DNA of 34,580 nt from Deltaproteobacteria bacterium (lineage in GTDB: Bacteria; Myxococcota_A; Polyangia; HGW-17; JAJRWW01): contig JAOZUO010000083.1 in assembly GCA_029938605.1 (NCBI GenBank), forward strand, positions 1-34,580, in the 5' to 3' direction. Below are positions 1 through 34,580 of this stretch, one piece after another (within the stretch, counting starts at the first letter, position 1; every line of letters begins with the position of its first letter). The notes under the pieces are model-generated. The model was given only the letters and a program-made list of their open reading frames with translations, was not told the origin of the DNA and searched no databases. A program made the translations under genes and the position numbers.

Positions 1-421
<421 letters not shown>

Positions 422-4721: not shown

Positions 4722-6272
4722 CTACTGGGCGCCGAAGATACCGCGGAGGTTCGTGGGCGTGGTTCCCAGCTCCAGGGCGATGGAAAAACCATCCACGAAG
4801 CGCCGGTTGCCCTCGCTGTCGAGGGCCTGGGTGCAATGCTCGATGACCACGGTGGCGTCCATGGTGTCCTGGACCATGGTGCCGTCGCCGTCGATGCAGG
4901 TGTCCACGGCTTCGATGGTGGGATCCCCGTCCAGGTTCAGATCCAGGAAGATCTCCACCCCGTCGTCGTCCACATCGATGTCCGGCGCGCGCACGTCGGA
5001 CTTGCACCGGTAGTTTTCCATGTCGCCACAGTCATCATTGCTCTCGCAAAAAAGCAGCGGGAGCATCATCTCGACGCCGTCTCTCCGGGGCACGCAGATC
5101 CGTACGGTGGGCAGCGACAGCACCGCGCCCACCGACCCCACGATAATGTCGAGCAGGGTGGAGTTCTCGTCGCCGCCAAGGAAGTCCGCGGCGATGTTCG
5201 GTACCAGGTCCAGGCTCCGCCCCGAGAGGACTCCACCGAGCAGGCCGTCGGTCAGATGTAGCCCGTACTGGTCGATGGTCACGTCCGCAACGAGCATGGC
5301 GTTGGTGAGGTTCAGCTCCATGGGGCGCCCCTCCAGATCCACCACGAAGGAGAACCGGGACGGCCCGGCGTACAGCACGCCCCCCTCCACCCGGCCCGAG
5401 CGGAAGACGATCATCGCCTCGGACAGGTCCTCAGTGAGCCCCAGGGCGTCGATGGGGATGGTCTCGTCCACGCCGTCTTCAGTGATCATCGGGTTGCAGC
5501 CCTCATCAGCCTCGCCGTTGCAGTTGTTGTCGAAGCCGTCCCCGCAGATCTCCGCCTGGTCGGGGTGAATGAGCTGCGCATCCCAGTGATCCGGCGCGTC
5601 GGGCCAGTCCGACGGGATTCGGTCGTCGCAGTCGCCATCCTCCAGGGTGTAACCGTCACCGTCGTAGTCGGCCGTGTCCGTGGAGGGCGTGTAGTCCGTG
5701 CCGTCGAAGGTCTCGTCCGCCATGCCGTTGCAGTCGTTGTCCACGCCATCCCCCGGGATGTCCGTGGCGTTGGCGGGGGTGATGGTGGCGTCCCAGTCGT
5801 TGCAGTCCGCGTCCGTATCGCCCACGGCTCCGGCGGTGCGCTCCCCGTCGTCGTCCTGATCCGGCGCGAAGGTGCCCACCAGGAAAGTGAAGTTCACGCA
5901 GTCGTCGTCAACATCGGAGTCCAGCCCGAAAAACTCCATGGGGATGATGATCTCGGCCACCTCCATGGAGTCGTCGATGTAGGGGTTGGCGATGGAACCC
6001 AGGGGCCCCAGGAGGTTGTCCGTGTCTCCGTCGAAGTCCAGGTCGATGCCCCGCGAAGGCGAGGCAATGCCCAGGTGATTCACCAGGGTCTGGTGGCTGC
6101 CGCCAAAGACCGGAACGGGGTCGTCCTGACAGTCACCGATATACACGTCCGGGCGCACAATGGCGTCCGAGCCCGCATCCAAATTGTTGTTGTCTCCAGG
6201 GCTGTCGTCGCCACAGCCAACGGCGAAAAGTACCGGAACGGCGACCAACAGGGAAACCAGCGCAATCTTCAT
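4722..6272 (-). CDS. lipoprotein with MopE-type Asp/Asn-rich metal-binding repeats
   Basis: 516 aa. A signal peptide ends in FAVGC, so Cys20 is the likely lipidated residue (Ala at -3 is slightly off consensus). A short D/N-rich linker follows. Residues about 138-260 hold two MopE-like modules: each has an Asp-rich DDDG or YDGDGY start, a D-C-N-D or D-C-D-D block, and a GDGVDNDCNG or GDGFDNNCNG end with a Cys pair. In this family such loops bind calcium and are read as extracellular. The rest (about 265-516) is beta-rich with a D-rich stretch near the C-terminus and has no family I recognise. The protein is probably on the outer-membrane surface. RBS AGAAGGAG precedes ATG 6272, and a good promoter lies at 6353-6324. 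Confidence 0.85.
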   Translation of the reverse strand: MKIALVSLLVAVPVLFAVGCGDDSPGDNNNLDAGSDAIVRPDVYIGDCQDDPVPVFGGSHQTLVNHLGIASPSRGIDLDFDGDTDNLLGPLGSIANPYIDDSMEVAEIIIPMEFFGLDSDVDDDCVNFTFLVGTFAPDQDDDGERTAGAVGDTDADCNDWDATITPANATDIPGDGVDNDCNGMADETFDGTDYTPSTDTADYDGDGYTLEDGDCDDRIPSDWPDAPDHWDAQLIHPDQAEICGDGFDNNCNGEADEGCNPMITEDGVDETIPIDALGLTEDLSEAMIVFRSGRVEGGVLYAGPSRFSFVVDLEGRPMELNLTNAMLVADVTIDQYGLHLTDGLLGGVLSGRSLDLVPNIAADFLGGDENSTLLDIIVGSVGAVLSLPTVRICVPRRDGVEMMLPLLFCESNDDCGDMENYRCKSDVRAPDIDVDDDGVEIFLDLNLDGDPTIEAVDTCIDGDGTMVQDTMDATVVIEHCTQALDSEGNRRFVDGFSIALELGTTPTNLRGIFGAQ

Positions 6273-9409: not shown

Positions 9410-10177
9410 GTGAGCCAACAGAATCTCTGTCCGCGCTGTAATAGCGTGATCCCACCCCTGGCCAGCGGGTGTGTGCATTGTGGCCCGCCCGCTGCGGTGG
9501 ACATGCGCTTCAATGTGGTCAAGGCGGGAGAGCCCTTCCACGCCGCTGCCAACGCGATGGCGCCGGTATCGGTCGGGTTGCCGGCGGACGTACTGACCAT
9601 CGGCGAGAGTGACCAGGTCTGGTACTGTCGCATTGGTGGCCAGAATGTTGGGCCAGTCACGGCGGAGGAGATCCGCGGAGCCTTTGCCAAAGGCCAGATC
9701 GACGGCCAGGCCTCCGTGGGCATCCAGGGAAAGCAGGATTGGTTCCCCATCCGCTCCCTACCTCAGTTTTCGGACCTCCTCACCGGCATCGGCCCCGCAC
9801 CCACCTCGCGGCCGCTGCCCCTGCAGACACCCGTTGCTGCGGACTTGCCGCTCCCCAATACGGCCCCCCAACGACCGGCGCCCGCGAACCGACCTCCCCT
9901 GGTCCGTCCGGCCAATACGGCCCCCGTAGCGCCCACCCCGGTAGCGAGCCCCAATCGGGACGACAAAACCGAGATCGTGCCTCCCCTACCTCCCCCGGGA
10001 CCGATGCCCGGCGCCCAGTACGCCACGCCGGTTCCGTCACGTAACCTTCCTCCGCCCATGGCGGTGCTCCAGGACGAGATCAGGCGCCTCCGACGCCTGG
10101 CCCTGATCCTGGGATTCGTAGCCGGTTCGCTCTTCATTGCCACCGCCGCCCTGCTGGGTCTCCTCGCCGCAGGCTAG
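9410..10177 (+). CDS. zinc-ribbon / GYF_2 / membrane-anchored protein
   Basis: 255 aa. Cys7, Cys10, Cys21 and Cys24 form a short zinc ribbon. Residues about 68-125 match the GYF_2 pattern: WYCRIGGQNVGPVTAEEIR, then GQIDGQASV and QDWFPI. A Pro/Ala-rich linker (about 130-215) leads to a C-terminal membrane segment (about 228-254). The protein is probably tail-anchored with its domains in the cytoplasm. GYF_2 domains are protein-interaction modules; no partner is known here. The start is GTG 9410; GGAGG at 9393-9397 is 12 nt upstream, slightly far. A 16-codon ORF (ATG 9391 to TAA 9441) with its own AGAGGA overlaps this start in another frame. Confidence 0.78.
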   Translation: MSQQNLCPRCNSVIPPLASGCVHCGPPAAVDMRFNVVKAGEPFHAAANAMAPVSVGLPADVLTIGESDQVWYCRIGGQNVGPVTAEEIRGAFAKGQIDGQASVGIQGKQDWFPIRSLPQFSDLLTGIGPAPTSRPLPLQTPVAADLPLPNTAPQRPAPANRPPLVRPANTAPVAPTPVASPNRDDKTEIVPPLPPPGPMPGAQYATPVPSRNLPPPMAVLQDEIRRLRRLALILGFVAGSLFIATAALLGLLAAG

Positions 10178-10182
10178 CTGAT

Positions 10183-10219
10183 ATGCTGTCCCCGGCCTAC
10201 GGGGGTTCGCATGTTTTTT
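10183..10219 (+). terminator. probable Rho-independent terminator
   Basis: A two-part stem, ATGC...GCAT enclosing CCCC...GGGG (10183-10212), is followed directly by G and a run of six T (10214-10219). It lies just after the stop codon of the zinc-ribbon/GYF gene and separates it from the sigma-factor operon. Confidence 0.55.
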
Positions 10220-10247
10220 GAAACCGATCCCATCTTTGCGGACTACT
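10220..10247 (+). promoter_or_regulatory. possible ECF-type (autoregulated) promoter
   Basis: GAAACC (10220-10225) is separated by 16 nt from ACTACT (10242-10247). The GAAAC-type -35 is typical of ECF-sigma promoters and lies just upstream of the sigma gene, as expected for autoregulation. The -10 is weak, so this is a suggestion only. Confidence 0.3.
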
Positions 10248-10275: not shown

Positions 10276-10842
10276 ATGGCTGAGACAAGGATCACAGATG
10301 CCGACCTCTCTAGACGCTGCCGCCAGGGTGACCCCGAAGCGTGGCGGATTCTCATCCGTCGCTGTTCGCCCCTGGTGTACCGGGTGGCCCTGCGTATGGT
10401 CGCCGGGCCGGCGGAGGCCGAAGACGTGTGTCAGGAGGTGTTCATGAAAATTCACAGCGCCTTCGATACGTTCGATCCCACACGGCCCCTGTCACCCTGG
10501 GTGGGACGCATCACCTACAACACCTGCCTACGTAGGCTCAAGGGTGTGGCCCGGGCGGGCGTCCCCACGGAGCCGTCCCGTTTCGACTGGATGGAAGACG
10601 ACCGACAGCCCGGCCCCGAGGTCATGGCGGCACGGTCCGAGGCCGGAGATCTCCTGCTCGAAGCCATGGACCGGCTCGCCGCCCAGGATCGGGCGCTGCT
10701 CACCATGCGGTACCGGGAGGGGCTCTCGGACACAGAGGTGGCCGAAGCCACGGGGATGCCCGTAAACACTGTGAAGACGAGAATTTTTCGGGCGCGCAGA
10801 CTGCTCAAGAAACGGCTCGCACCCCAACTGAAGGACGAATAG
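10276..10842 (+). CDS. RNA polymerase sigma factor, sigma-70/ECF type
   Basis: 188 aa, the usual ECF length. Region 2 spans about residues 24-90, with the conserved AEDVCQEVFMKIH core recognition helix and the TRPLSPWVGRITYNTCLRRLK DNA-melting part. A short acidic linker follows, then region 4 (about 127-180) with LAAQDRALLTMRYREGLS and the helix-turn-helix VAEATGMPVNTVKTRIFRAR. It directs RNA polymerase to its own set of promoters. ATG 10276 is preceded by AGGAG at 10255-10259 (far) and a weak AGG nearer. The stop codon directly abuts the ATG of the next gene, a probable anti-sigma factor, so the two are translationally coupled. Confidence 0.93.
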   Translation: MAETRITDADLSRRCRQGDPEAWRILIRRCSPLVYRVALRMVAGPAEAEDVCQEVFMKIHSAFDTFDPTRPLSPWVGRITYNTCLRRLKGVARAGVPTEPSRFDWMEDDRQPGPEVMAARSEAGDLLLEAMDRLAAQDRALLTMRYREGLSDTEVAEATGMPVNTVKTRIFRARRLLKKRLAPQLKDE

Positions 10843-11376
10843 ATGCGACGGCCGGACGAATCAAACGATCTCAATGCGCTGAGCGAGTCCGAGCAACTCG
10901 AGATCCTGGTGGAGTCCTACCTCGACGGGCTGCTCTCCCCCGAGGAGACGGCTCTGTTCGAGCGACGGCTCCTGGAGCCGGCCGTGGCCGAAGCCTTTCG
11001 GGAAGCGCTGATGCTCCGCGCGCTCCTGGCCAACATGCCCCCGGATCAACCGCCACAAGAGCTGGTGGCTGCTCTGGAGGCGGCGCTGGTGGCGGACGTG
11101 CGCCTGGCACGAAAAGCCGCGCGGATGCCGCGACTCCGGGCAGCCCTGTCGGGCATGAGCTGGATGGTTCGAGGGCCGGCCCAGGCCATTGGGGCCGCCG
11201 GCACCTCCTCGGGTGAGCTGGGAAGTCCCCTACGCGATGGACTGTCCACCATGCGATACGCCCTGGGCCCCCTGGCTGCAGGTGGAGGAGTACGCGCCAA
11301 ACAGGACCGGGCTCGGCCCTGGTGGCGACGCGCCCTTGCCCGTGGACTCCGCCGCAAAGCGAAGGAGGGCAGGTAG
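10843..11376 (+). CDS. probable anti-sigma factor (degenerate, no zinc motif)
   Basis: 177 aa, ATG directly after the TAG of the sigma gene. The N-terminus (about residues 17-60: LVESYLDGLLSPEETALFERRLLEP) has the helical pattern of anti-sigma N-terminal domains, where LDGxLSPEE is very common, but the His-Cys-Cys zinc ligands of ZAS domains are absent. The rest is Arg/Ala/Gly-rich, ends in a strongly basic tail, and has no clear membrane segment. The role rests on position plus this motif and is an inference. The following DUF2953 gene starts 4 bp after its stop, with GAAGGAGGG inside this gene's 3' end. Confidence 0.6.
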   Translation: MRRPDESNDLNALSESEQLEILVESYLDGLLSPEETALFERRLLEPAVAEAFREALMLRALLANMPPDQPPQELVAALEAALVADVRLARKAARMPRLRAALSGMSWMVRGPAQAIGAAGTSSGELGSPLRDGLSTMRYALGPLAAGGGVRAKQDRARPWWRRALARGLRRKAKEGR

Positions 11377-11380
11377 CCCC

Positions 11381-12058
11381 ATGCTGTCCCTGATTCACTC
11401 CACCGCCACCGTCGTGGTCTTTGCCTCGGCGATATCCACCGCGGGCCTGGTGCTGATGTGGATCGCCGTTGGGTTGGGGGCTGTGCTCGCTCTGCTCGTG
11501 CTGGTTCCCATCCACGTGCGGGCCAACGGCGGAATAGACGACCTGGACCTCACGGGCCAGGCTCAAATCCGTTGGGCATGGGGGGTGATCTCGCTGCGGA
11601 TGACCCGGGAACGGGGCACCACTATCCACCTCCTCGGTCTACGGATCTGGACCCTGGGCCAAGGAGGACTCGACGATAAGCCCCGTGAAAAACCCAAAGC
11701 CCCGAAGAAACGGGCCAAAGGGTGGTTCCCGTGGTTGGTCCAGCACCGCCACACCGGGCTGCGGTTCGTGAAACGACTGATCCATACCCTACGATTGCAA
11801 ATCCATTTACAGGGTGTGGTGGGCCTGGATGATCCCACCGCCACGGCCCTGATGAACAGAATGCTATGGGAGCTCAACCGCGCCTCTCCGTCGCTCCGCT
11901 TGCAGGTGGAACCGGATTGGTTGGACGAGCGGGTACAGCTCGACGGCAGCCTGACTGCGCGGATCTGGCTGGCGCATATGGGCTTGGTGCTACTGGGCGG
12001 ACTGATCCACCGTGATACGAGACAAATGATACGCACCGTTCCACGCGCGGCACGGTGA
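11381..12058 (+). CDS. DUF2953 family membrane protein (YtfI-like)
   Basis: 225 aa from ATG 11381, chosen because GAAGGAGGG (11361-11369) precedes it; a longer open frame from 11189 would overlap the previous gene. Two N-terminal hydrophobic stretches (about residues 8-45) are followed by a basic region and the DUF2953-like core, in which VGLDDPTATALMNRMLWEL corresponds to the conserved GxxDPxxT block. In Bacillus the DUF2953 gene ytfI sits directly before ytfJ (GerW), exactly as here, which supports the assignment. Molecular function is unknown. The stop codon at 12056-12058 overlaps the ribosome-binding site GAGGAGG of the next gene. Confidence 0.75.
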   Translation: MLSLIHSTATVVVFASAISTAGLVLMWIAVGLGAVLALLVLVPIHVRANGGIDDLDLTGQAQIRWAWGVISLRMTRERGTTIHLLGLRIWTLGQGGLDDKPREKPKAPKKRAKGWFPWLVQHRHTGLRFVKRLIHTLRLQIHLQGVVGLDDPTATALMNRMLWELNRASPSLRLQVEPDWLDERVQLDGSLTARIWLAHMGLVLLGGLIHRDTRQMIRTVPRAAR

Positions 12059-12069
12059 GGAGGACAACG

Positions 12070-12366
12070 ATGAAAGACTTCAGGGAAATCTTTGCAGCAG
12101 TGAGTGACCGTGTGGCCAGCCTGGCCAAGAGCAACGCAGTGGTGGCCAAGCCCATCTCCGTGGGAGACCGGCACGTCATCCCCCTATGCGAGCTGAGCGT
12201 TGGCTTCGGAGGAGGAGGAGGCGTCGGTGAGGGCGAAGCGATCAAGCCCGGGGACGATCTGATGACCGGCTCGGGTGGAGGCGCCGGTGGAGCGGCCAAG
12301 GCCACTCCGGTGGCAGTGGTGGTGATCGAAAACGGCAAGGTGCATATCCAGCACCTGGGACAGTAG
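12070..12366 (+). CDS. GerW/YtfJ family protein (first of two)
   Basis: 98 aa from ATG 12070; GAGGAGG at 12057-12063 is 6 nt upstream. It shows the YtfJ pattern: an N-terminal helix (MKDFREIFAAVSDRVASLA), the VVAKPISVGDRHVIPLCELSVGFG beta region, a Gly-rich loop (GGGGGVGEGEA, then SGGGAGGAA) and a final AVVVIENGKVHIQHL strand. In Bacillus this family is a spore protein needed for germination, but members also occur in non-sporulating bacteria, where the role is unknown. No signal peptide is present, so it is cytoplasmic. It is followed 10 bp later by a longer paralogue. Confidence 0.85.
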   Translation: MKDFREIFAAVSDRVASLAKSNAVVAKPISVGDRHVIPLCELSVGFGGGGGVGEGEAIKPGDDLMTGSGGGAGGAAKATPVAVVVIENGKVHIQHLGQ

Positions 12367-12376
12367 GAGAGCACAC

Positions 12377-12793
12377 ATGCAACACGTAAAAGAGCTACTG
12401 GACCTGGTAATCGGCAAGTTGGAGACCGTGGCCCAAAGCGACGCCGTGGTGGGTGAGCCCATCGAGCTGGGCGGGGTCACCCTGGTGCCCCTCACGCGAA
12501 TCAACCTGGGCTTCGGCGTAGGGGGAGGGGAGGGTGAGGGGCAGGGGTTCGGACCCGGTCCACACGGCCCAAAAAAGCGGGTGGGCGGTGCCCAGGGCAA
12601 GGGCGTCGGCGGCGGCACAGGCGGCGCGGCCAAGGTCCGGCCCGTGGGGGTGGCGATCTTCAGCGCCGATGGCGTGGAGATCCTGCCCATCAAGGACAAA
12701 AAGGGGCTGATGGACCGGCTCTTCGACAAGATCCCCGAATTGGTGGAGATGGTCAAAGAGGCCACCGAAGGCATGGACAAGTCGACCAACTGA
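12377..12793 (+). CDS. GerW/YtfJ family protein (second of two)
   Basis: 138 aa from ATG 12377, with TAGGAGAG just upstream overlapping the stop of the first copy. The core matches the family well: VVGEPIELGGVTLVPLTRIN, then LGFGVGGGEGEG, a second Gly-rich stretch and VGVAIFSADGVEILPI. It differs from its neighbour by a longer Gly/Pro loop (about residues 58-85) and a C-terminal helical extension of about 30 residues (KDKKGLMDRLFDKIPELVEM). The two may form a hetero-oligomer (inference). Its stop codon lies inside the first unit of a 12-bp tandem repeat. Confidence 0.85.
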   Translation: MQHVKELLDLVIGKLETVAQSDAVVGEPIELGGVTLVPLTRINLGFGVGGGEGEGQGFGPGPHGPKKRVGGAQGKGVGGGTGGAAKVRPVGVAIFSADGVEILPIKDKKGLMDRLFDKIPELVEMVKEATEGMDKSTN

Positions 12794-12849: not shown

Positions 12850-13323
12850 TCAGTCAGTGAGGGCGACTACCCGCCAGCGATCCTTTTCGGGCGCCAACAC
12901 AACGATGAGCCCACCCCGACGAAACCGCCCGAAGGCGACCACCAGATCCTTGCCGTGCAGCTTCAACCGAGCCGGCGGCGGACCGAAGATCCGCCGGGCC
13001 TGCGCCAACGTCAGCACCGCCACCTTTCGCAACCGCCTGCGGACCTTCATCCGGGCCAGGACCTGACGCAACCGCTTGAGTACGGCTTTTTCCCCCTTCA
13101 CCTGGTGACCGTCGAAGTCCACGGTGGCCGCGCACAAGGGCGCCGCGGTCTTCAGATCGCGATCCACCAGCGCCCTCAGGAAAGTCTTGGCCACCAACAC
13201 CGCGAGCAGGGGGATCTTCTTCGGTGCAACCCGGGGCCCGGCGGCCCGGGCATGGTCACCCGAGGTTGTCACACCGCCCACCGCGACCACCGCGACCACC
13301 ATTGAGAACAAGATGCGTTTCAT
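12850..13323 (-). CDS. secreted NTF2/SnoaL-like small protein
   Basis: 157 aa from ATG 13323 (a TTG 12 nt upstream in frame is possible). A signal peptide with a hydrophobic core (MVVAVVAVGGV) ends at ARA-A near residue 28. The mature part has the feel of an NTF2-like fold: a helix (LVAKTFLRALVDRDLKTAAPLC), VDFDGHQVKG, a basic helix, then strands DLVVAFGRF, GLIVVLAPE and DRWRVVALTD. Such domains serve as enzymes or small-ligand binders; no catalytic residues could be assigned. It is convergent with the GerW operon. GGGGGG lies just before the ATG and may act as the ribosome-binding site. Confidence 0.6.
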   Translation of the reverse strand: MKRILFSMVVAVVAVGGVTTSGDHARAAGPRVAPKKIPLLAVLVAKTFLRALVDRDLKTAAPLCAATVDFDGHQVKGEKAVLKRLRQVLARMKVRRRLRKVAVLTLAQARRIFGPPPARLKLHGKDLVVAFGRFRRGGLIVVLAPEKDRWRVVALTD

Positions 13324-13335
13324 CGTACCCCCCAA

Positions 13336-13694: not shown

Positions 13695-15887
13695 ATGACC
13701 CAGACGGAAGATTCGAGGCGCGAGCCGCGCACCACCCCGAACCACCGCTGGCCCCGACGCATCGCTGATTGGCTTAGCTGCGGTCCCGTCGTCGGCGTGC
13801 TCATCGGCTTGGCCCTCTTCGTCCGGGGCGTTACGTCCCTTGGTGAGCTGAACTACCTGGGTCAGGGCACCGAGGAGGCCCGGCAGATCGCCATCCGGGT
13901 CTTTGGAGTTGACGTGGTCCGAGAACACCTCAAGCTCTTGGCTCTGTACCTGGGCCTCGGCTTGGCTGGAGGGCTCGCGGCCTCTGGCCTGTGCGCTCTA
14001 CGGGATCACCTCCGTGGGCGGCGGCCCCGGTCCCGCCTCTGGCGCATGGGGCGGTACGCGCTGGTGATAAGCGGCCTGCATCTATTTCTGTTCGCCCGGT
14101 CCGTGGTGGTCTATCCACAGCTCTACGCCGAGTACTTCTACGACAAGGGCGGGTTTAAGAAACAAATGCAGATGGTGCTCACCGACACCTTCTCGCCGGG
14201 CCTGATGGACGGCCTGATGCTGCTGGCGCTGACCCTTTTTGTGCTCCTGCCCCTGGTGGGCACCCTCCGCTCCGGGGGCTGGTCCTGGCGACCACCGCCC
14301 CTTCGACGCCTGGCGGGCTGGGGGACCTCCCTGGGCCTCATCACCGTGGCCCTGGTGAGCCTCGCCGTGGCCACCGGTCCCCGGGTCGCGCACGACAACA
14401 AAGGCCCCAACGTGCTGATTATCGCCGTGGACAGTCTGCGGGCGGATCGCCTCTACCAGGATCGGTACCGCCGGGTGGCCCCGCGACTCCATCGGTTCAC
14501 GAAAAAGAGCGCACGCTTCTCGCGCGCCTACGTCACCCTGGCCCGGACGTTCCCCTCCTGGCTGAACTTTCTGTCAGGACAAGAGCCCCACACCCACGGC
14601 ATCCGGCATATGTTCCCCACCTGGCGAGCCCGGCGGCGGGCGGGGATGACCCTACCGCTTCACCTTCGGCGGGCGGGCTACGAAACCGCCGTGGTCTCCG
14701 ACTACGCCGGTGAGATCTTCGGCCGTATCCCCATGGGCTTCCACCACCGGGAGGTCTCCTCCTTCTCCTTTTACGAGATCATACGGCAGCGGGTGCTCAA
14801 GGCTCATGCCCACCTGATGCCCTACCTTTCCACGGGCCTGGGGCGCCGCCTGGCGCCGCCCATGGCGGGAATGCCGGAAAACTCCGACCCGCACATCATG
14901 GCCCGGCAGGTCAACCGCATGCTCACCCGGGTGGCCCGAAAGAAGCGCTTTTTCATGGTGGCCTTCTTCTCCGCGTCGCACTTCCCCTACTCGGCGCCCT
15001 ATCCCTACTACCAGCGGTTCACCTCTCGCAGCTACACCGGACGCTTCCGCTACCACAAGCAGCTCCTGCTCAATGAGGGCCCCCCCACCACCACGGACAT
15101 CAAGCATATGCGGCAGCTCTACGACGGTACCGTCGCCGCCGCCGACGACGCCATAGGCCGAGTCCTGGATCACCTCCACACCCTCGGCATTGCCGACAAG
15201 ACCATCGTAGTGCTGACCGCCGATCACGGAGAAAACCTGTATGAGCCCACCCTCGGCATGGGCCACGGAGACCACCTACGGGGCGAGGTGGCCACCAGGG
15301 TACCCCTGGTGATCTACGATCCCGTGAACCGCACCGCCCCCCGACGGGTAAGCTCCATCGTACGGGACGTGGACCTGGCGCCCACCCTGGCCGCCCTGGT
15401 GGGCAAGCCCATGAAGAACGCCATGGCCGGGCGGAGCCTGCGTCCCCTCATGCAGGGCAAACCCGCCCGAGGCGACCGCGCCGCCTTCATGGAGACCGGC
15501 CTGTGGTTCACCCCCAAGCCGCAAGGCGTCGCGGCGAACCTGCGCATGAACTATCCGCCCGCGCTCAGTGGCCTGGTGCGCCTGGACGAGAAGCGACGGG
15601 GAGACCTTGTGCTCAACGACCGCTACCGATCCATTGTGGTGGCCGCCAAGCACAGGGCCATCCGCACCGGGCGGTGGAAGCTGATCTATGTCCCCCTTGT
15701 CCAGGGCGTGCGCCACCTGCTGTTCGACGTCAAGGTCGATCCGAACTGCACTCGGAATGTGGCCGCCAGCCACCCCCAGGTGACGGCACGGCTGGCCAAG
15801 CGGCTCGCACGTTGGATGCGCGGCGAGCCGGGCTCAATGCAAGTGGGTGACTACGTGCTGCCCGGACCCCAAGGAAAGAAACCATGA
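13695..15887 (+). CDS. membrane-anchored alkaline-phosphatase-superfamily enzyme ('sulfatase' fold), Thr-type
   Basis: 730 aa. About five N-terminal membrane segments (near residues 32-50, 80-101, 121-140, 170-190 and 210-228) are followed by a large periplasmic sulfatase-fold domain (about 236-700). The metal-site motif LIIAVDSLRADRL has Asp246, and VVLTADHGEN has Asp510 and His511. At the nucleophile position the sequence is ARTFPSW: Thr285 stands where sulfatases have the Cys or Ser that becomes formylglycine. Five helices plus a Thr-nucleophile domain is the plan of LtaS-type phosphoglycerol transferases, so transfer or hydrolysis of a phosphate ester fits better than sulfate removal (inference). 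It overlaps the next gene by 4 bp (ATGA), indicating coupled translation. Confidence 0.85.
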   Translation: MTQTEDSRREPRTTPNHRWPRRIADWLSCGPVVGVLIGLALFVRGVTSLGELNYLGQGTEEARQIAIRVFGVDVVREHLKLLALYLGLGLAGGLAASGLCALRDHLRGRRPRSRLWRMGRYALVISGLHLFLFARSVVVYPQLYAEYFYDKGGFKKQMQMVLTDTFSPGLMDGLMLLALTLFVLLPLVGTLRSGGWSWRPPPLRRLAGWGTSLGLITVALVSLAVATGPRVAHDNKGPNVLIIAVDSLRADRLYQDRYRRVAPRLHRFTKKSARFSRAYVTLARTFPSWLNFLSGQEPHTHGIRHMFPTWRARRRAGMTLPLHLRRAGYETAVVSDYAGEIFGRIPMGFHHREVSSFSFYEIIRQRVLKAHAHLMPYLSTGLGRRLAPPMAGMPENSDPHIMARQVNRMLTRVARKKRFFMVAFFSASHFPYSAPYPYYQRFTSRSYTGRFRYHKQLLLNEGPPTTTDIKHMRQLYDGTVAAADDAIGRVLDHLHTLGIADKTIVVLTADHGENLYEPTLGMGHGDHLRGEVATRVPLVIYDPVNRTAPRRVSSIVRDVDLAPTLAALVGKPMKNAMAGRSLRPLMQGKPARGDRAAFMETGLWFTPKPQGVAANLRMNYPPALSGLVRLDEKRRGDLVLNDRYRSIVVAAKHRAIRTGRWKLIYVPLVQGVRHLLFDVKVDPNCTRNVAASHPQVTARLAKRLARWMRGEPGSMQVGDYVLPGPQGKKP

Positions 15888-18592
15888 CCGCCCGGATCGT
15901 CTGGAGCGTGAGTCGCTCCGTCGCGCCCTATCTGCTCGGTCTGGCGACCGTGGGGCTGCTGTTGACGGTGGGGCGCCTGCCGGATCTGCCTCCACCGTGC
16001 CCCAAACCCGTCACCGACACCGCACTGACGGCCCACCGGCAACGCCACACCATCGACCCGGCGAAAGTGGGCAAGGGTACCACCGAGGCCATCGCCATTC
16101 GTCTGCTGGATCATCTGAAGACTGCCACGCGGGTCCACCCGCGGCTGGTCCGTTCCTATCAACGACTCGCCCGAGGCAACGGCGCGCCGGGGCACTGGCG
16201 CCACTACATCGATCCCTGGTCCCGTCTGCCGGCGCCACTCCAGCCCCTGAGAGTCCAGATGAACTTCGCTTTCCAGGACGTCCGCGCCTATGCCCACCCC
16301 GAGGGCTGGACCCGCCCTGTAGCCCGGCGGGCCAGGAGAACCACCAACAAGCGCGCTCGTAAACGCCCGCCCCGGCGACAGTTCGGTCGGGACAGGGGAA
16401 TGAACAAGACCCCTGGGGTCAACGAAACGCGGCTGAGCCTATTCGCACCCACCCCGGCGGCCTTCACCTTCCGCGTGGCGCTGGACCAGCGCGCCGCGCT
16501 TACCTTCGGTGCCGGAGTGCCCGTAAACTCCACCCGGGGACCGGTCACATTCCAGGTGGAGGTGGCCACGGGCAAAGATCCCGCCAAGGTCGTCGCCGAG
16601 CTGACCGTAACCGGGGCTCAGCGCCACCAGTGGCACGACCGACGCGTGGACCTGTCGGCCTGGCAGGGCCAGGAGATCCAGCTTACTCTGCGCACCAAGG
16701 GGCCCCGGAACGCCTTTGCCTTCTGGTCAAATCCGGTGATCTGGAAGGCCGGAGCTGCCCGCCCCGGCAAGAACGTGATCTTCATCCTCGTCGACACCCT
16801 GCGGGCCGACGGCGTGCGGGCCGTGACCGGGAAACACGCCATCACGCCACACATGGATGGTCTTGCCAAGCGCGGCGTGACGTTCACCAAGTGCTTCTCC
16901 ATGGCGAGCTGGACCCGATCCTCCCTGCTCGGGATATTCGCCAGCGAGCACGTCACCCGCGTAGACCCCCAGCTGAACACCCAATTCAAGCTCCACCACC
17001 GCTTCCGCAAACAGATATACAAACGGTGGCCACGGCTTCTGACCTGGCACCTGAAAAAACAAGGGTATTGGCTCGAGGCAATCGGAAACAACTTCTTTCT
17101 GCCGTCCTACACCCCCATCGGCTTCGACCGGGGCTTCGACCACGTCACCGATATCCGCGCCCACATCCACGACACTCCGGCCATCACCCGGGGCGCGATC
17201 CGGTTTCTACGCGCCCACCGGGACAGGCCGTTCTTTTTGTACCTGCACTATGATGGACCCCATTCGCCCTACTGGAGCCCCAAGGGCTACCGCGTAAAGG
17301 GTGCCCGGCCTCCGGGCGGCCCACACGACCGCCGCTTCGAGGAGTACCTGGGAGAGAGCCGCTGGACCGACAGCAACCTCGAGCCGCTCTTCACCGAGCT
17401 CAAGAAGCTGGGGCTCAACAAAAACACGGTGGTCGTGCTCACCGCCGACCACGGCGAGGTGTTCCACCGGGCCCACGACTACCTGGTGGGCCGCCGCAAG
17501 AAAAACCGCACCCTGCACCATCATGGATGGTCCGTCTACGAGGAGGTGCTGCACGTCCCGCTGATCATCACCGCGCCCGGAATTCGGGCAGGACGACGCA
17601 TCACCGCACCGGTGAGCCACATCGATCTGGCGCCCACCCTGCTGGACCTGGCCGGGGTGGTCCCCATGGAGGGCACCATGGGTCGCAGCCTGACCCCGGC
17701 GATTCTGCACAACAAGAAGATCGACCTCCGCCCCATCGCAGCGGTGGCGCGCTGGTCCTACGGCTTGCGAAAAGGACACTGGCGCTACATCCACCGGTTC
17801 GGCGCCGGACGAATTCTGCGCAATCCTTCCAAACCAAAGCGCACCACTCATGTCTCCGACGAGCTGTATGATCTGAAGTCCGACCCCGACGAGACCAAGA
17901 ACCTCGCCCGCGCCCGGCCGCAGCTCACCCGGAACCTGCGCAAGGAGCTCTTCTCCATCGTTTTGGGTAGCGGCGGCAAGGGCGGTCACAACACCCCGCG
18001 AGTCCAGTCGAGCCCGAACGTCTTCACCAAACCGGGGTTGCGATTGAGCCTTCGGCTCTGGGGCGGGCAGGGAAACCACAAGATCACGGGCAGCCTCTGG
18101 TGCCCGGGCACAGTGGTGGTACGGAACCTGCGAGGCCCCTCGTCCCATGCGACCTACCGGACCAGGGGTCGGGTGGACGTGCTGCTGGGGTACCACGACG
18201 GCAACCCCGCCGAAGTGGAGCTCGCCTTCGTGGGCTGCGCCCCGTCCACCATCAGGCTGGACCTGCGGCTGGACGGCAAGCCCCTGCGGGGTGAACAAGT
18301 GGCAGTGGGCCCGGTGTCCCTGCGTCTGATGCCAAAGCCCACCCGCCTGCCCTCCACGAGCCTTCGGGCCTTCGTGAGCCATCGGCCGCCCCCGCTGCTG
18401 CCATCAACAACGCCGCGCTTGCACCTGTGGCTGGGCTCGACCTACGAGGGCGATCTGAACCTGGATGACGGCGCAGGCTCGGCGGCACGCCTGGCCGACA
18501 AGATGCTGCGTGACGCCGGCTACTCCAAGGGATCGGCCCGACCCCGGCCCCGGCCCCGGCCCCGGCCCCGGCCCCGGCCCAAATCTCGCTGA
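15884..18592 (+). CDS. membrane-anchored alkaline-phosphatase-superfamily enzyme with N- and C-terminal beta domains
   Basis: 902 aa. One N-terminal membrane segment (about residues 12-30) is followed by a basic linker, a beta-rich module (about 180-290) that could be a carbohydrate-binding-like jelly roll, and then a sulfatase-fold domain (about 295-690). NVIFILVDTLRADG has Asp304 and VVVLTADHGEVFH has Asp522 and His523. The nucleophile region reads ASWTRSSLLG: Thr344 sits at the Cys/Ser position and the usual Pro is replaced by Ser345-347 context (T-R-S-S), so the formylglycine signature is absent. A second beta-rich region (about 705-880) and a tail of seven Arg-Pro units end the protein. 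It is co-transcribed with the preceding enzyme and probably acts on the same envelope polymer. Confidence 0.85.
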   Translation: MTARIVWSVSRSVAPYLLGLATVGLLLTVGRLPDLPPPCPKPVTDTALTAHRQRHTIDPAKVGKGTTEAIAIRLLDHLKTATRVHPRLVRSYQRLARGNGAPGHWRHYIDPWSRLPAPLQPLRVQMNFAFQDVRAYAHPEGWTRPVARRARRTTNKRARKRPPRRQFGRDRGMNKTPGVNETRLSLFAPTPAAFTFRVALDQRAALTFGAGVPVNSTRGPVTFQVEVATGKDPAKVVAELTVTGAQRHQWHDRRVDLSAWQGQEIQLTLRTKGPRNAFAFWSNPVIWKAGAARPGKNVIFILVDTLRADGVRAVTGKHAITPHMDGLAKRGVTFTKCFSMASWTRSSLLGIFASEHVTRVDPQLNTQFKLHHRFRKQIYKRWPRLLTWHLKKQGYWLEAIGNNFFLPSYTPIGFDRGFDHVTDIRAHIHDTPAITRGAIRFLRAHRDRPFFLYLHYDGPHSPYWSPKGYRVKGARPPGGPHDRRFEEYLGESRWTDSNLEPLFTELKKLGLNKNTVVVLTADHGEVFHRAHDYLVGRRKKNRTLHHHGWSVYEEVLHVPLIITAPGIRAGRRITAPVSHIDLAPTLLDLAGVVPMEGTMGRSLTPAILHNKKIDLRPIAAVARWSYGLRKGHWRYIHRFGAGRILRNPSKPKRTTHVSDELYDLKSDPDETKNLARARPQLTRNLRKELFSIVLGSGGKGGHNTPRVQSSPNVFTKPGLRLSLRLWGGQGNHKITGSLWCPGTVVVRNLRGPSSHATYRTRGRVDVLLGYHDGNPAEVELAFVGCAPSTIRLDLRLDGKPLRGEQVAVGPVSLRLMPKPTRLPSTSLRAFVSHRPPPLLPSTTPRLHLWLGSTYEGDLNLDDGAGSAARLADKMLRDAGYSKGSARPRPRPRPRPRPRPKSR
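18539..18580. repeat. 6-bp tandem repeat coding for an (Arg-Pro)7 tail
   Basis: Seven hexamers of the form CGGCCC (first copy CGACCC) lie in frame at the 3' end of the second phosphatase-superfamily gene, ten bases before its stop codon. Being a multiple of three, copy-number changes would alter tail length without a frameshift. Confidence 0.85.
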
Positions 18593-27342: not shown

Positions 27343-27466
27343 ACAGCTTGGCTGCGATGCAACCCGTCAACCCAACACATAAAACCGCCAGTACAGCGCC
27401 CATCGGAGGGGCGGTGGAAACGGCAAAAGCCGAACCCCCTTGCGCCCGGGACCCGAAGCGACGATC

Positions 27467-30400
27467 ATGATCTCCCTAACCATGAAACGGCTCGTACGGA
27501 GGATATTCAACGTTCACCCGGGAGAGGGCGCCCAGGTCCTGATCCTGATGCTGTTCATCTTCTTTATCCAGTCGGTGCTCTCCACCGGCAAGGTGCTGCA
27601 GTACTCGGTATTTCTAGACTCCTTCGGCCGTAAATCCCTGGCCTTGGCCTTTGTGTTGGCGCCCCTGGTGTTGGCGCTGGTGGCGGCTTTCTACTCCGCC
27701 CTGACCCGCCTGGTACGGATCGCCGTGCTGGTGCCGGTGACCCTGGTGGTGTTGGCCGCGGGCTTCATCTTCTGGCGACTGCTGCTGGCACCGCCTCCCC
27801 CGGATTTCCCCATCCTGGGCACCTGGGTCCCCGAACCCCTGCCGGATCCCTACGGCACCTTCTTCCTGTACATCTGGGTGGAGGTGGCGGCCTCCATCGC
27901 CATCGTCCAGGCCTGGGCCTTTGTCAGCGACGCCTTCGATCCTCGCCAGGCCAAGCGGCTGATCCCCCTGGTGGGTCTGGGGGCGAGCTTCTCCTTTCTG
28001 CTCAACGGCTTCGTAGTGCACCCGCTGGTCAAGTACGTCATCGACGCCGAGGACCTGACCTGGCTGGTGGCCTTCTCCTTCCTGATGTCCATCGTGCTGT
28101 TTTGGGTAGCCCGGCACCGGGGCATCGGGGGCCGAGACAGGCCCAGCCGAGACAGGTCCAGTCGGCCTACGCCCATCCAGAGAAAAGGGAACCCAGACAG
28201 CTTCTTCGGCTCCATGATGGTCGGCTTCGAGCAGATTGGGCGCACGCCCCTTTTGCGCCTCTTCGCCATCATCACCGTGGCCACGATCCTGTCCCAGGGG
28301 CTTTTGGACTTCATCTTCATGTCCACCCTCAAGATGCACTTCGAGAAGAACGAGCTGGCCGGCTTCCTGGCCATCTTCTATGGGTCGCTCGGGGCCATTC
28401 AGGTGCTTCTGCAGATGTTCGTATCCGGGCGACTTCTGACGAGACTGGGCAGCGCCGTGTGCCTGTCGATCCTTCCTCTGGCGGTGTGCCTGGGTTCCCT
28501 CGTATGGGTGATCCTGCCGGCCTTTGGGCTGCTGGTGGGGCTGCGCTTTGGCGACCGTCTTCTCAAGCAGGCTTTCTACAGCCCCAGCCTCCAGGCCCTC
28601 TACACGCCGGTGCCCAAGATGGCCAAGCGGCAGGCCATGATGCTCATCAAGGGCGTGATCTCTCCGCTGGCCTTCGCGGTCTTTGGACTGATTCTGTTCT
28701 TTTTCGGTGTGGGTCTCAAGCTGCAGTACCTCGCCCTGGGCCTGGTGGCCATCGCGGGGACGGCCTTCGGGATCATGGTATTCCGAGCCCGGCCGGCCTA
28801 CGTGAAGGCCCTGTCCGAAGCCTTGGAGCGACGGAAGCTCGACCAGTTCGAGGTGGTGGAGGACTTCGCCGTGGGCATGGACGGGGAGACCATCGCCTTC
28901 ATCCAGGCGGCGGTCTTTGAGCAGGATGACGAAGGCAAGGCCGTGTTCGCCCTGCGCATGCTCGCCGGAGTCCGCTCCGTTCAGGTGACCGAGCTGCTCT
29001 TCAAGGCCTGCCGCCATCCCTCTGCCCTGGTCCGCAAGGAGGCAACCCTCCTCATCGCCGAGATGGAGCGGGCCGCGGACGCCCCCGCCGTTGCCGCCCT
29101 GGTGGCCGACGAGGAGGATCCCGAAGTGGTGGCCCAGCACCTGGTGACCCTGGCTACCCTGGGCACCGAGGGCACCGCCGGCACGGTAGAAGGGCTGCTC
29201 AACCACCCACGGCGGCGGGTACGTGCGGCCGCCACCCTCTGCGCCCAGCGGCTGGATCTGGCCACCGACCTCGCGGACCAGACCTTCGACAGCCTCGCCC
29301 ACGCACCCAAGGAGGCCGACCGGCTGATCCTGGCCCAGGTGATGCTCCCCTTTGCCCACGAGAGCCTGGCCCCCCGCTGCCTGATTCTTCTGGCGGACGG
29401 ATCAGCGGCGGTGCGGGGCGCGGCCCTGCGCGCAGCGGGCACCATCGGGTCCCCTACGCTGCTGGCTGACCTGCTGGTATGCTTCACCTGCCTGGGACCT
29501 GCTGACGAGGCCGGCGTGGCCCTGGCCGCCCTGGGAGACGTGGCCGTGCCCGAGCTGGGAAAGATCGCCGCGAGCAAGGACGCCCCCTTGATGCTGCGAC
29601 AGCGGGTTCCCCGCATCCTCGCTACGGTGGACACCGATCAGGCGGGCCGCGTGCTCGAGGACCTGCTGTCTGATCCCCATGACGACATCAGGCTCTACGC
29701 CATCCGCTCCCTGAACCGCATCACCGACAACCCAGGCGGCTACGACCGACCGGCCCAGACACTCATCGTGGAGCGCATCCGAGCCGAGGTGATCACCGGA
29801 CAGGTGCTCGCCACCACCCGGCGCGGCCTTTCGGGGCTGCTGGATCCCCACCAGACTTCGCTCCTCAGCCAGGAGCTCGAACACCGCCTGGCCGCCTGCC
29901 TCACCCGTCTGTTCGGCCTCGCCGCCCTGGTAGAGGATCCGAAGATGACTGCCATCATCCACTGGAACATCCAGTCGGGTGATACCCGCTTGACCGCCCA
30001 CGCCATCGAGCTCATCGACACGGCCTTCTCCCGAGAAGTAGCGGAGTTGGTTGTGCCCTTGGTGGAAAGTAAAACCCGCACGGTGGACCTGGCCAAGAGC
30101 CTGCCTGAGGCCGCCGAGAATCTGCGCCTGGCGGCCAAGAACCCGGTCAAGGCCGTGGTCACGGGCCAAGACCAATGGCTACGGATCTGCGCGGCAGTGG
30201 GCTGGCCCGAGCTCACCCAATCCATCGACGCCCCCCTCTACCAGGAGGTTCAGACCATGGTTCCCCTCATCGAGCAAATCCTCTTCCTTCAGTCCGTTCC
30301 CATCTTCCGGGAGCTGTCGGGCGAGGAGCTGCACTTCATCGCAGGCATCACCGAGCACCTCTCCATCGCCAAGGATGAGACCCTGTTCCACGCCGGAGAT

Positions 30401-30721
30401 CCGGGGGACGCCATGTACCTCATCCTCCACGGCTCGGTGTCCATCCAGCTCGGTGACCTGGAGATAGTGCGCATAGAGCGCCGGGACTGCTTCGGAGAGA
30501 TGGCGGTCATCGACAACCTCCCCCGGAGCGCCGACGCCGTGGCCGCCGAGGACACCGATCTGCTCCGCATCGACGCCCAGTCCTTCGACGAGCTCCTCCA
30601 GGAGAAGCACCAGATCGTCAAGGGCATCTTCAAGGTCCTGTCCTCCCGCCTCCGCGAATCCACCGCCAAACGCGTCACCGGCCCCGCCCCCATGGTCTCC
30701 GCCCCCACCTCCGACTCGTAA
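27467..30721 (+). CDS. NTT-type (Npt1/Npt2-like) MFS protein fused to HEAT repeats and a cyclic-nucleotide-binding domain
   Basis: 1084 aa from ATG 27467; a TTG at 27440 would add 9 residues and an ATG at 27482 would drop 5. Residues about 20-440 form about 12 membrane helices of the nucleotide-transporter/MFS type. About 480-800 are HEAT-like helical pairs rich in Ala and Leu (for example HPSALVRKEATLLIAEM, NHPRRRVRAAATLCAQ). The C-terminus (about 939-1070) is a complete cNMP-binding domain: FHAGDPGDAMYLILHGSVSI and the phosphate cassette FGEMAVIDNLPRSADAV (Phe1009, Glu1011, Arg1020). It may be a transporter or sensor gated by cAMP/cGMP, with the HEAT part as a coupling scaffold (inference). 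It is divergent from the Tad operon. Confidence 0.85.
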   Translation: MISLTMKRLVRRIFNVHPGEGAQVLILMLFIFFIQSVLSTGKVLQYSVFLDSFGRKSLALAFVLAPLVLALVAAFYSALTRLVRIAVLVPVTLVVLAAGFIFWRLLLAPPPPDFPILGTWVPEPLPDPYGTFFLYIWVEVAASIAIVQAWAFVSDAFDPRQAKRLIPLVGLGASFSFLLNGFVVHPLVKYVIDAEDLTWLVAFSFLMSIVLFWVARHRGIGGRDRPSRDRSSRPTPIQRKGNPDSFFGSMMVGFEQIGRTPLLRLFAIITVATILSQGLLDFIFMSTLKMHFEKNELAGFLAIFYGSLGAIQVLLQMFVSGRLLTRLGSAVCLSILPLAVCLGSLVWVILPAFGLLVGLRFGDRLLKQAFYSPSLQALYTPVPKMAKRQAMMLIKGVISPLAFAVFGLILFFFGVGLKLQYLALGLVAIAGTAFGIMVFRARPAYVKALSEALERRKLDQFEVVEDFAVGMDGETIAFIQAAVFEQDDEGKAVFALRMLAGVRSVQVTELLFKACRHPSALVRKEATLLIAEMERAADAPAVAALVADEEDPEVVAQHLVTLATLGTEGTAGTVEGLLNHPRRRVRAAATLCAQRLDLATDLADQTFDSLAHAPKEADRLILAQVMLPFAHESLAPRCLILLADGSAAVRGAALRAAGTIGSPTLLADLLVCFTCLGPADEAGVALAALGDVAVPELGKIAASKDAPLMLRQRVPRILATVDTDQAGRVLEDLLSDPHDDIRLYAIRSLNRITDNPGGYDRPAQTLIVERIRAEVITGQVLATTRRGLSGLLDPHQTSLLSQELEHRLAACLTRLFGLAALVEDPKMTAIIHWNIQSGDTRLTAHAIELIDTAFSREVAELVVPLVESKTRTVDLAKSLPEAAENLRLAAKNPVKAVVTGQDQWLRICAAVGWPELTQSIDAPLYQEVQTMVPLIEQILFLQSVPIFRELSGEELHFIAGITEHLSIAKDETLFHAGDPGDAMYLILHGSVSIQLGDLEIVRIERRDCFGEMAVIDNLPRSADAVAAEDTDLLRIDAQSFDELLQEKHQIVKGIFKVLSSRLRESTAKRVTGPAPMVSAPTSDS

Positions 30722-33014: not shown

Positions 33015-33043
33015 GCGCCTGTCGGGTTGAAGGATGATACTTC
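33015..33043 (+). promoter_or_regulatory. possible promoter of the Memo-family gene
   Basis: TTGCGC (33015-33020), a 17-nt spacer and GATACT (33038-33043) precede the strong AGGAGG (33052-33057) of the Memo gene. The match is weak, and transcription would start close to the ribosome-binding site. Confidence 0.25.
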
Positions 33044-33066
33044 TTTCTCACAGGAGGTATTGGGCG

Positions 33067-33930
33067 ATGGACATAGTGAAGCGTGGTGACTACTTCGCGG
33101 CCCAGGGCTGGTATCCGGCCCAGCAAAAGGCCTGCGGCCGGCAAATCGAGGAGTTCCTCAAAGCCCTCGACTCTCAGACGTTGCCTGCCCAGCGGCTGCG
33201 CTGCGGCATCGTGCCCCACGCCGGGTGGATGTTCTCCGGCAGGCTGGCGGCCTGGACAATTGGAGCCCTTGCGCGGCATGCGGACCAGGTGGACACGGTG
33301 GTGCTGCTGGGGGGCCACCTGGGACCGGGGTCCGGGAGCTGGATCCTCAAAGACGGTCGCTGGCCCACCCCCGTGGGCGACCTCGAAGTGGACCGGGACC
33401 TTTCCGAGGCAGTGGCCCGGGAGACCGGCTGGCGCCTCACCGGACCCGCCGACTACCAACCCGACAACACCCTCGAGCTGCAGATGCCGATCTTGCGCCA
33501 CTGCTTTTCGAACAGCCGCCTGGTGGCCGCCGGGGTGGCGGCGGATCCCGACTGTATCGATGCCGGCGCCGCGGTGGTGCGCGCCGCCGCTGATCTGGGT
33601 CGGGACATCGTGGTCATCGGCTCCACCGATCTCACCCACTACGGTCCGAACTACGGCTTCAACCCCGCCGGCTCCGGCGCCGAAGCGGTGACGTGGGTCA
33701 AGGAGGTCAATGACGCCCGGGGTGTGGAGCTCATGGTGAACCTGGACCCCAAAACCCTGGTGTTAGAAGCTCTCGAGAAACACTTCTGCTGCTGCCCCGG
33801 AGCCACCGCCGCCACCCTCGCCGCCGCCCGCGCCCTCGGCGCCGACAAAGGCCACGTCCTGTCCACCCTCACCAGCTACGACGTCCATCCAGGCGAAAGC
33901 TTCGTAGGCTACGCCGCCGTCGTCTTTTGA
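33067..33930 (+). CDS. amrB: Memo-family protein, AmmeMemoRadiSam system protein B (AmrB)
   Basis: 287 aa from ATG 33067, with AGGAGG 9 nt upstream; an earlier in-frame start at 33034 lies before that site. Family motifs are present in order: VPHAGWMFSGRLA (His51), VVLLGGHLGPGSG (His84), ELQMPILRH, VVIGSTDLTHYGPNYG (His191), FCCCPGAT (Cys241-243) and SYDVHPGESFVGYAAVVF at the end. The human MEMO1 metal site uses two His and one Cys at matching positions, so metal binding is likely. The usual partners, an AMMECR1-domain protein and a radical SAM enzyme, are not adjacent. Cytoplasmic. Substrate unknown. Confidence 0.9.
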   Translation: MDIVKRGDYFAAQGWYPAQQKACGRQIEEFLKALDSQTLPAQRLRCGIVPHAGWMFSGRLAAWTIGALARHADQVDTVVLLGGHLGPGSGSWILKDGRWPTPVGDLEVDRDLSEAVARETGWRLTGPADYQPDNTLELQMPILRHCFSNSRLVAAGVAADPDCIDAGAAVVRAAADLGRDIVVIGSTDLTHYGPNYGFNPAGSGAEAVTWVKEVNDARGVELMVNLDPKTLVLEALEKHFCCCPGATAATLAAARALGADKGHVLSTLTSYDVHPGESFVGYAAVVF

Positions 33931-33936
33931 CTCCAT

Positions 33937-34580
33937 TCAAGATGCAATTCCAGCGAGGTCTCTTATACCATCGCGAAAGAACTGAAAGCTCTCGGACTGG
34001 TTGGCGTCGACATCTATCTTTGGGGCGATTTTCTGCGCCCACTCACATTTTGCGCGACCAGGGGCGGGCCAACCTTCCTTCTTTAACGCCTTCGCTCCTC
34101 CCTTCTGAATCGCATCTGCTAGCAATTCCCACGTCCCGCAAATCGAATCCTGCTGGTAGCCATCTAGAATCTGTGTCTTGGCTTTTGGGTACGCGCCTAC
34201 CACCGCATTGCGATCGCCGAGTAGCCATGCCTCCATTTCCTCGATGGCGATACGAAACAGCGTCGTCGGTCCTGGGTTGCAGGCAGCTTGTACTTCAATC
34301 AACTCCTGCTTGAAATTCGTGCAGGTACGGTCGTCGAGATCCACTACTACCACCACAGCCGCGTCAAAGTCCTGGTGACTCTTGCCATAGCCTTCGAGCA
34401 ACTTCGGTAGCCGATCCAGAAGAATTCGCTTTCTAACATCGATCTTCCCGGTCATTCCCTTGGGAAGATGCCCAACGCCTCTGTAGCAGATGATTCGATA
34501 GCTGTGCTCCACACCATTTGGGCCAAGGATTTTTTCCACCAGAGACTGGAGTGCGAGCCTCCCCGACGCATCTTCAACCA
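33937..34580 (-). CDS. DUF4276 family protein, partial (5' end beyond the window)
   Basis: The reading frame stays open to the right edge: before the GTG at 34539 it reads VEDASGRLALQSL, which fits the VE(D/G)-type beginning of DUF4276 proteins, so the true start is probably just outside. Seen here are about 214 residues. VVVVVDLDDRTC resembles a TOPRIM-like DxD strand, followed by IAIEEMEAWLLGD and a helical C-terminus. DUF4276 genes often sit next to an AAA ATPase gene; that would be to the right, out of view. Base composition is unlike the neighbours (about 47-50% GC in two 60-base lines counted by hand), pointing to a horizontally acquired cassette. Six bases separate its stop from the Memo gene's stop. 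Confidence 0.75.
   Translation of the reverse strand, partial: VEDASGRLALQSLVEKILGPNGVEHSYRIICYRGVGHLPKGMTGKIDVRKRILLDRLPKLLEGYGKSHQDFDAAVVVVVDLDDRTCTNFKQELIEVQAACNPGPTTLFRIAIEEMEAWLLGDRNAVVGAYPKAKTQILDGYQQDSICGTWELLADAIQKGGAKALKKEGWPAPGRAKCEWAQKIAPKIDVDANQSESFQFFRDGIRDLAGIAS

Follow-up and report, generated by a model that had tools for sequence, protein, structure and literature searches.

Gene content of the locus

The window, that is, the whole stretch of 34,580 nucleotides that was analysed, carries a run of five plus-strand genes at positions 10276-12793. A preliminary description made from the letters alone had reported a tight cluster with gaps of 0-11 bp; its coordinates and gene order were found to be right, with intergenic gaps of 0, 4, 11 and 10 bp. 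The genes are as follows.

10276-10842 (+): extracytoplasmic function (ECF, group IV) sigma factor, 188 aa, assigned by TIGR02937 and Sigma70 profiles
10843-11376 (+): putative anti-sigma factor, 177 aa, soluble, zinc-less and class-I-like, with an N-terminal anti-sigma domain and an invariant YLDG, assigned by family profile
11381-12058 (+): DUF2953-type (YtfI-like) membrane protein, 225 aa, with one predicted N-terminal transmembrane (TM) helix, assigned by family-level PF11167 match and hydropathy
12070-12366 (+): GerW1, short Spore_YtfJ paralogue, 98 aa (PF09579, 45.6 bits), in a clade of its own
12377-12793 (+): GerW2, full-length Spore_YtfJ paralogue, 138 aa (PF09579, 63.3 bits), in a clade of its own

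The upstream neighbour (9410-10177) encodes a GYF_2 protein and ends 98 bp before the sigma gene, and the downstream neighbour (12850-13335) is convergent to the operon. Elsewhere, the window holds the 5′ end of a 16S rRNA gene (1-421, minus strand, 394 bits), which runs off the contig end and helps to place the organism. Two neighbouring sulfatase-family proteins are encoded at 13695-18592 (plus strand); the first of them has several hydrophobic segments near its N-terminus. A 1093-aa fusion at 27440-30721 (plus strand) joins a TLC ATP/ADP-transporter-like membrane domain to HEAT repeats and a cyclic-nucleotide-binding domain. A Memo-like protein (33034-33930, plus strand; PF01875, 114 bits) is adjoined by a DUF4276 protein at 33937-34539 (minus strand).

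The sigma factor and its putative inhibitor

The first gene product, previously called an ECF-like sigma factor, is confirmed as ECF by its profile matches: TIGR02937 at 100.6 bits against a cut-off of 42.9, Sigma70_r2 at 62 bits (residues 26-90) and Sigma70_r4_2 at 55 bits (residues 126-177). It consists of sigma2 and sigma4 only, with a linker of fewer than 50 residues, which is the domain make-up of the ECF (group IV) class. The protein is 46-53% identical to eight orthologues, and an anti-sigma-like gene lies adjacent to the sigma gene in all 13 loci compared, the co-location typical of ECF factors.

The window anti-sigma protein gives a weak zf-HC2 match (E 0.05, below the Pfam cut-off). 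A match of this type, weak but present in 9/9 members of the family (best E 2.6e-4), bears out its earlier description as a probable anti-sigma factor. Of 379 genomes from the phylum, only seven, all with the GerW operon, have a full-length match to the family profile (at least 168 bits), and the next best match scores 43 bits; the linkage that the preliminary description had proposed to check is thereby upheld. An ECF sigma gene is present in every one of the loci fetched for the 23 strongest remote matches to the profile, and in 21 of them its position was measured as immediately before the match. These remote matches align mainly the N-terminal part and mostly lie in much longer open frames than that of the window protein.

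Cysteine is absent from all nine family members examined, and with it the Hx3Cx2C zinc motif, which is optional in anti-sigma domain (ASDI) proteins. Nor was a TM segment found in any of the nine, the maximum KD19 hydropathy being 0.75-1.13. As the family has neither feature, the second gene product would be a soluble, zinc-free anti-sigma factor of the class I type, an assignment that draws on the remote N-terminal match. Sequence searches gave no credible relative of it among solved structures.

The DUF2953 protein and the GerW pair

Both GerW proteins score above the curated PF09579 (Spore_YtfJ) cut-off of 25, so the family assignment made earlier is sound. Profile coverage is 1-63 of 81 positions for GerW1 and 4-81 for GerW2, and a C-terminal helix region present in GerW2 is missing from GerW1. 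Against the GerW equivalog model TIGR02874 (cut-off 116.3), the two score 32.0 and 56.6 bits, both below. Judged by these profiles, they are members of the Spore_YtfJ family and not GerW equivalogs. The GerW tree places GerW1 and GerW2 in a clade each (support 100/98 and 92/86, respectively), which implies that the pair is old. The gene had been described as duplicated here; a recent local event is rejected by the tree, the paralogue clades being common to all these loci.

The window DUF2953 protein has no Pfam match of its own. Within the alignment of its family, 6 of 13 members match PF11167 (best E 9e-4), more than match any other profile. Its hydropathy reaches a KD19 value of 2.84 at residue 24, and the AlphaFold model (pLDDT 85.9) shows a single long helix at the N-terminus and a domain of mixed alpha/beta structure. 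In the model of GerW2 (pLDDT 68.9), long strands surround a glycine-rich loop that is poorly predicted, and there is a C-terminal helix. Searching solved structures by sequence returned no credible relative of either GerW2 (best E 0.027, judged to be chance) or the DUF2953 protein, and comparison of the two models with solved folds gave nothing significant.

DUF2953-like genes adjoin GerW in many other layouts, including GerW-DUF2953-GerW, and both families are matched in Bacillus subtilis and Methanosarcina acetivorans. On these grounds the two proteins probably work together, and a membrane-tethered DUF2953-GerW complex can be inferred. GerW of Bacillus has been recovered in an RNA-binding proteome (PMC12456014).

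Conservation and distribution of the unit

The sigma factor, anti-sigma factor, DUF2953, GerW1 and GerW2 genes occur in identical order in 13 distinct genomes, 12 of the Myxococcota type and that of delta proteobacterium NaphS2. The set was drawn from profile searches of GerW loci and a scan of named genomes with the GerW1 alignment, and includes metagenome-derived genomes, in which mis-binning of contigs is possible. Kept in 13 genomes, the five-gene order is not a product of chance. Gaps between the sigma, anti-sigma and DUF2953 genes are mostly -8 to +4 bp, so that these genes are usually translationally coupled; the gaps that precede the GerW genes span -4 to 186 bp in all and are usually 10-186 bp. 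Flanking genes differ between the loci and are common only to close relatives (the pair L059/L064), and the unit thus behaves as a cassette.

The NaphS2 locus (L062) has the taxonomy entry unclassified Deltaproteobacteria, and the organism is presumably a member of Desulfobacterota. Among 395 sampled genomes of its phylum, it is the sole one with such a GerW pair and sigma gene, which makes horizontal transfer of the unit likely. Within Myxococcota, GerW is missing from 354 of the 379 genomes sampled.

The DUF2953-GerW1-GerW2 set also occurs without the sigma pair, at L044, L046, L047, L065 (Anaeromyxobacter oryzae) and L076. The coupling between sigma pair and GerW genes is therefore obligatory in one direction only. 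As most sigma-less loci nest among the sigma-bearing ones in the GerW tree, it is suggested that the sigma pair was lost in most of them. Separately, six loci from one family of the same class (L045, L049, L050, L052, L053 and L054) carry GerW, DUF2953-like and GerW genes without sigma or anti-sigma genes, and a locus in the phylum of NaphS2 (L202) has a GerW-DUF2953-GerW-like layout without a sigma gene.

A predicted promoter upstream of the sigma gene

A search of the 260 bp upstream of the sigma gene revealed tGAAACC-N15-GG(A/C)TA in 13/13 loci, the spacer always being 15 bp. In the window, its parts are as follows.

10219-10225 (+): predicted -35 element TGAAACC of an autoregulatory promoter, conserved ahead of the sigma gene in each of the 13 loci
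10226-10240 (+): 15-bp spacer, of the same length in 13/13 loci
10241-10245 (+): GACTA as the predicted -10 element, the consensus of the family being GG[AC]TA

At one mismatch or fewer, the motif is present in 11/13 loci (shuffled sequences: mean 0.04, maximum 2 of 13), and at two or fewer in 13/13 (shuffles: mean 0.56, maximum 4). With spacers of 10-14 and 16-21 bp, no locus has a site at one mismatch or fewer. The motif was first spotted by eye in the same sequences that were used for testing, the detached site in L069 alone being found afterwards. The upstream regions of the 13 loci can be aligned in two close pairs only, and the motif is therefore not leftover similarity. Two loci (L037 and L039) have GAAATG in place of GAAACC.

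When each whole locus (about 10-35 kb, the whole window included) was ranked with a leave-one-out matrix, the operon site came first in 12/13. In the exception, L069, it is second to an exact match at 4875-4900. This match lies 46 bp before another GerW1-GerW2 pair (4875-5626, site included), which stands apart from the sigma operon and has its own exact copy of the motif without DUF2953 or sigma genes. The sigma-less DUF2953-GerW loci have no site at one mismatch or fewer. A strict pattern, TGAAACC-N15-GRMTA, occurs twice in the 8.56 Mb genome of the window, one occurrence being 10219-10245. No sigma-70 promoter was found before the operon. Overall, the site has the look of an autoregulated ECF promoter and is predicted to be one. 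Its -35 element contains AAC in most loci, and its -10 element is GG[AC]TA, where the classical ECF element is CGT.

Extent of the regulon and proposed mechanism

Operon sites aside, exact motif matches in 20 genomes are about as frequent as matches to a reversed-pattern control, and the window genome has 54 matches at one mismatch or fewer versus 36 for the control. With matches beyond the operon near control level, a broad regulon gains no support from this search, and the sigma factor probably acts mainly on its own operon, together with the extra GerW pair in L069. In L152 (1193, minus strand) and L153 (1277, minus strand), from two operon-bearing genomes, the motif precedes a conserved protein (GVFLAGRACSDTLFHMVAGAYGHP...) by 83 bp, which makes the latter a possible second target; the two genomes are closely related, so that this shared candidate is not independent.

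The preliminary description had held the sigma pair to be coupled to DUF2953-GerW, and this survives in a sharper form. Because the gene order and the promoter-like site are both conserved, the pair very probably controls the DUF2953-GerW genes. There is good reason for confidence in the fuller reading, in which a narrow-regulon, autoregulated ECF/anti-sigma switch would govern its own five-gene operon with the DUF2953-GerW module as main target. At rest, the soluble, zinc-free anti-sigma factor would hold the sigma factor. A signal, perhaps some kind of stress, would free it, and the freed factor would direct RNA polymerase to tGAAACC-N15-GG(A/C)TA before its own gene for transcription of the whole operon. 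This would provide positive feedback and renewed inhibitor at once. The main product would be a membrane-linked module of the one-TM DUF2953 protein and two soluble GerW paralogues, their complex probably sitting at the inner membrane face.

The DUF2953 protein and the GerW pair might instead act as the sensor, reporting the state of the membrane or cytoplasm and directly controlling the soluble anti-sigma factor. ECF genes often share a transcript with a sensor gene, and an anti-sigma factor without a membrane segment is followed here by the gene of a single-pass membrane protein, usually at -8 to +4 bp and coupled. If so, the operon would be a self-amplifying sensor in which GerW serves as signal partner as well as product, and this would be a new mode of ECF control. 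This alternative is nevertheless considered unlikely: the wide occurrence of DUF2953-GerW without the sigma pair fits an output better, as does a second GerW pair that carries a copy of the site but neither a DUF2953 nor a sigma gene, and the genome-wide motif search gave no clear other targets.

It was also considered whether the unit belongs to a spore or dormancy system, with GerW proteins serving survival forms such as myxospores. Many Myxococcota form spores. In Bacillus, gerW is forespore-specific and sigma-F dependent (PMC4366231). The germination role of GerW is nevertheless disputed: the same study reported that its deletion leaves germination unaffected in two Bacillus species and that the protein is soluble and dispensable for germination (PMC4366231). 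The SpoIVA (PF09547) and GerA (PF03323) families are missing from 14/14 genomes, both being detected in B. subtilis with the same profiles. GerW is furthermore present in organisms that do not form endospores (Methanosarcina, NaphS2) and missing from most Myxococcota sampled. Taken with the scores below the TIGR02874 cut-off, these results leave the germination link drawn earlier weak. A spore or dormancy system of this kind is considered decidedly improbable; a stress or dormancy role, as the preliminary description had suggested, may still apply. That the five genes are mere neighbours, each separately regulated, with the motif serving the sigma gene alone, would suit the wider gaps, of up to 97 and 186 bp, that precede GerW genes in several of the genomes, but is very hard to credit, as the order is kept in distant genomes despite changed flanks and the separate GerW pair carries the same motif site.

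Significance and comparison with known systems

The autoregulated switch thus remains the preferred reading. The unit is best read as an autoregulated ECF/soluble anti-sigma pair dedicated to DUF2953-GerW, a target module unreported in the literature found; no paper that connects an ECF sigma factor with GerW or DUF2953 came up in the searches. GerW (Spore_YtfJ) and DUF2953 are widespread families without known function, present in organisms that do not make endospores, and for Bacillus the role of GerW in spore germination has been withdrawn. A compact operon that encodes a sigma factor together with an inhibitor, and has a predicted promoter, would offer a direct handle on the function of the GerW module through one sigma factor. 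It makes the family testable in bacteria without endospore genes, in the form of a portable, apparently self-switching unit, and the consensus promoter is specific enough for the prediction of targets.

The system resembles autoregulated ECF/ASDI pairs (reviewed in PMC8103513) in having sigma2 and sigma4 only, an adjacent anti-sigma gene, a -35 element with AAC in most loci and a predicted self-directed promoter, and differs from them in the -10 element, which is GG[AC]TA here and CGT there. Among ASDI proteins, about 35% are predicted to be soluble and about 65% have a membrane anchor; the zinc motif is present in about 72% of the soluble group (PMC7406223). Unlike most soluble ASDI proteins, the window anti-sigma factor is predicted to be both soluble and zinc-free. 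The sigma-less loci of Anaeromyxobacter oryzae and others share the DUF2953-GerW1-GerW2 order and, unlike the operon here, have neither sigma and anti-sigma genes nor a site at one mismatch or fewer.

Bacillus has one GerW, whereas two paralogues are encoded here and no endospore marker genes were found in the genomes searched. The sigma-F regulon of B. subtilis, as listed in PMC3097244, includes both ytfI and ytfJ. As in that ytfI-ytfJ pair, an alternative sigma factor is here associated with DUF2953 and Spore_YtfJ proteins. The B. subtilis factor is the forespore factor sigma-F, which governs many genes, whereas here a dedicated ECF sigma/anti-sigma pair lies inside the operon. DUF2953-GerW would thus be tied to alternative sigma factors in unrelated lineages.
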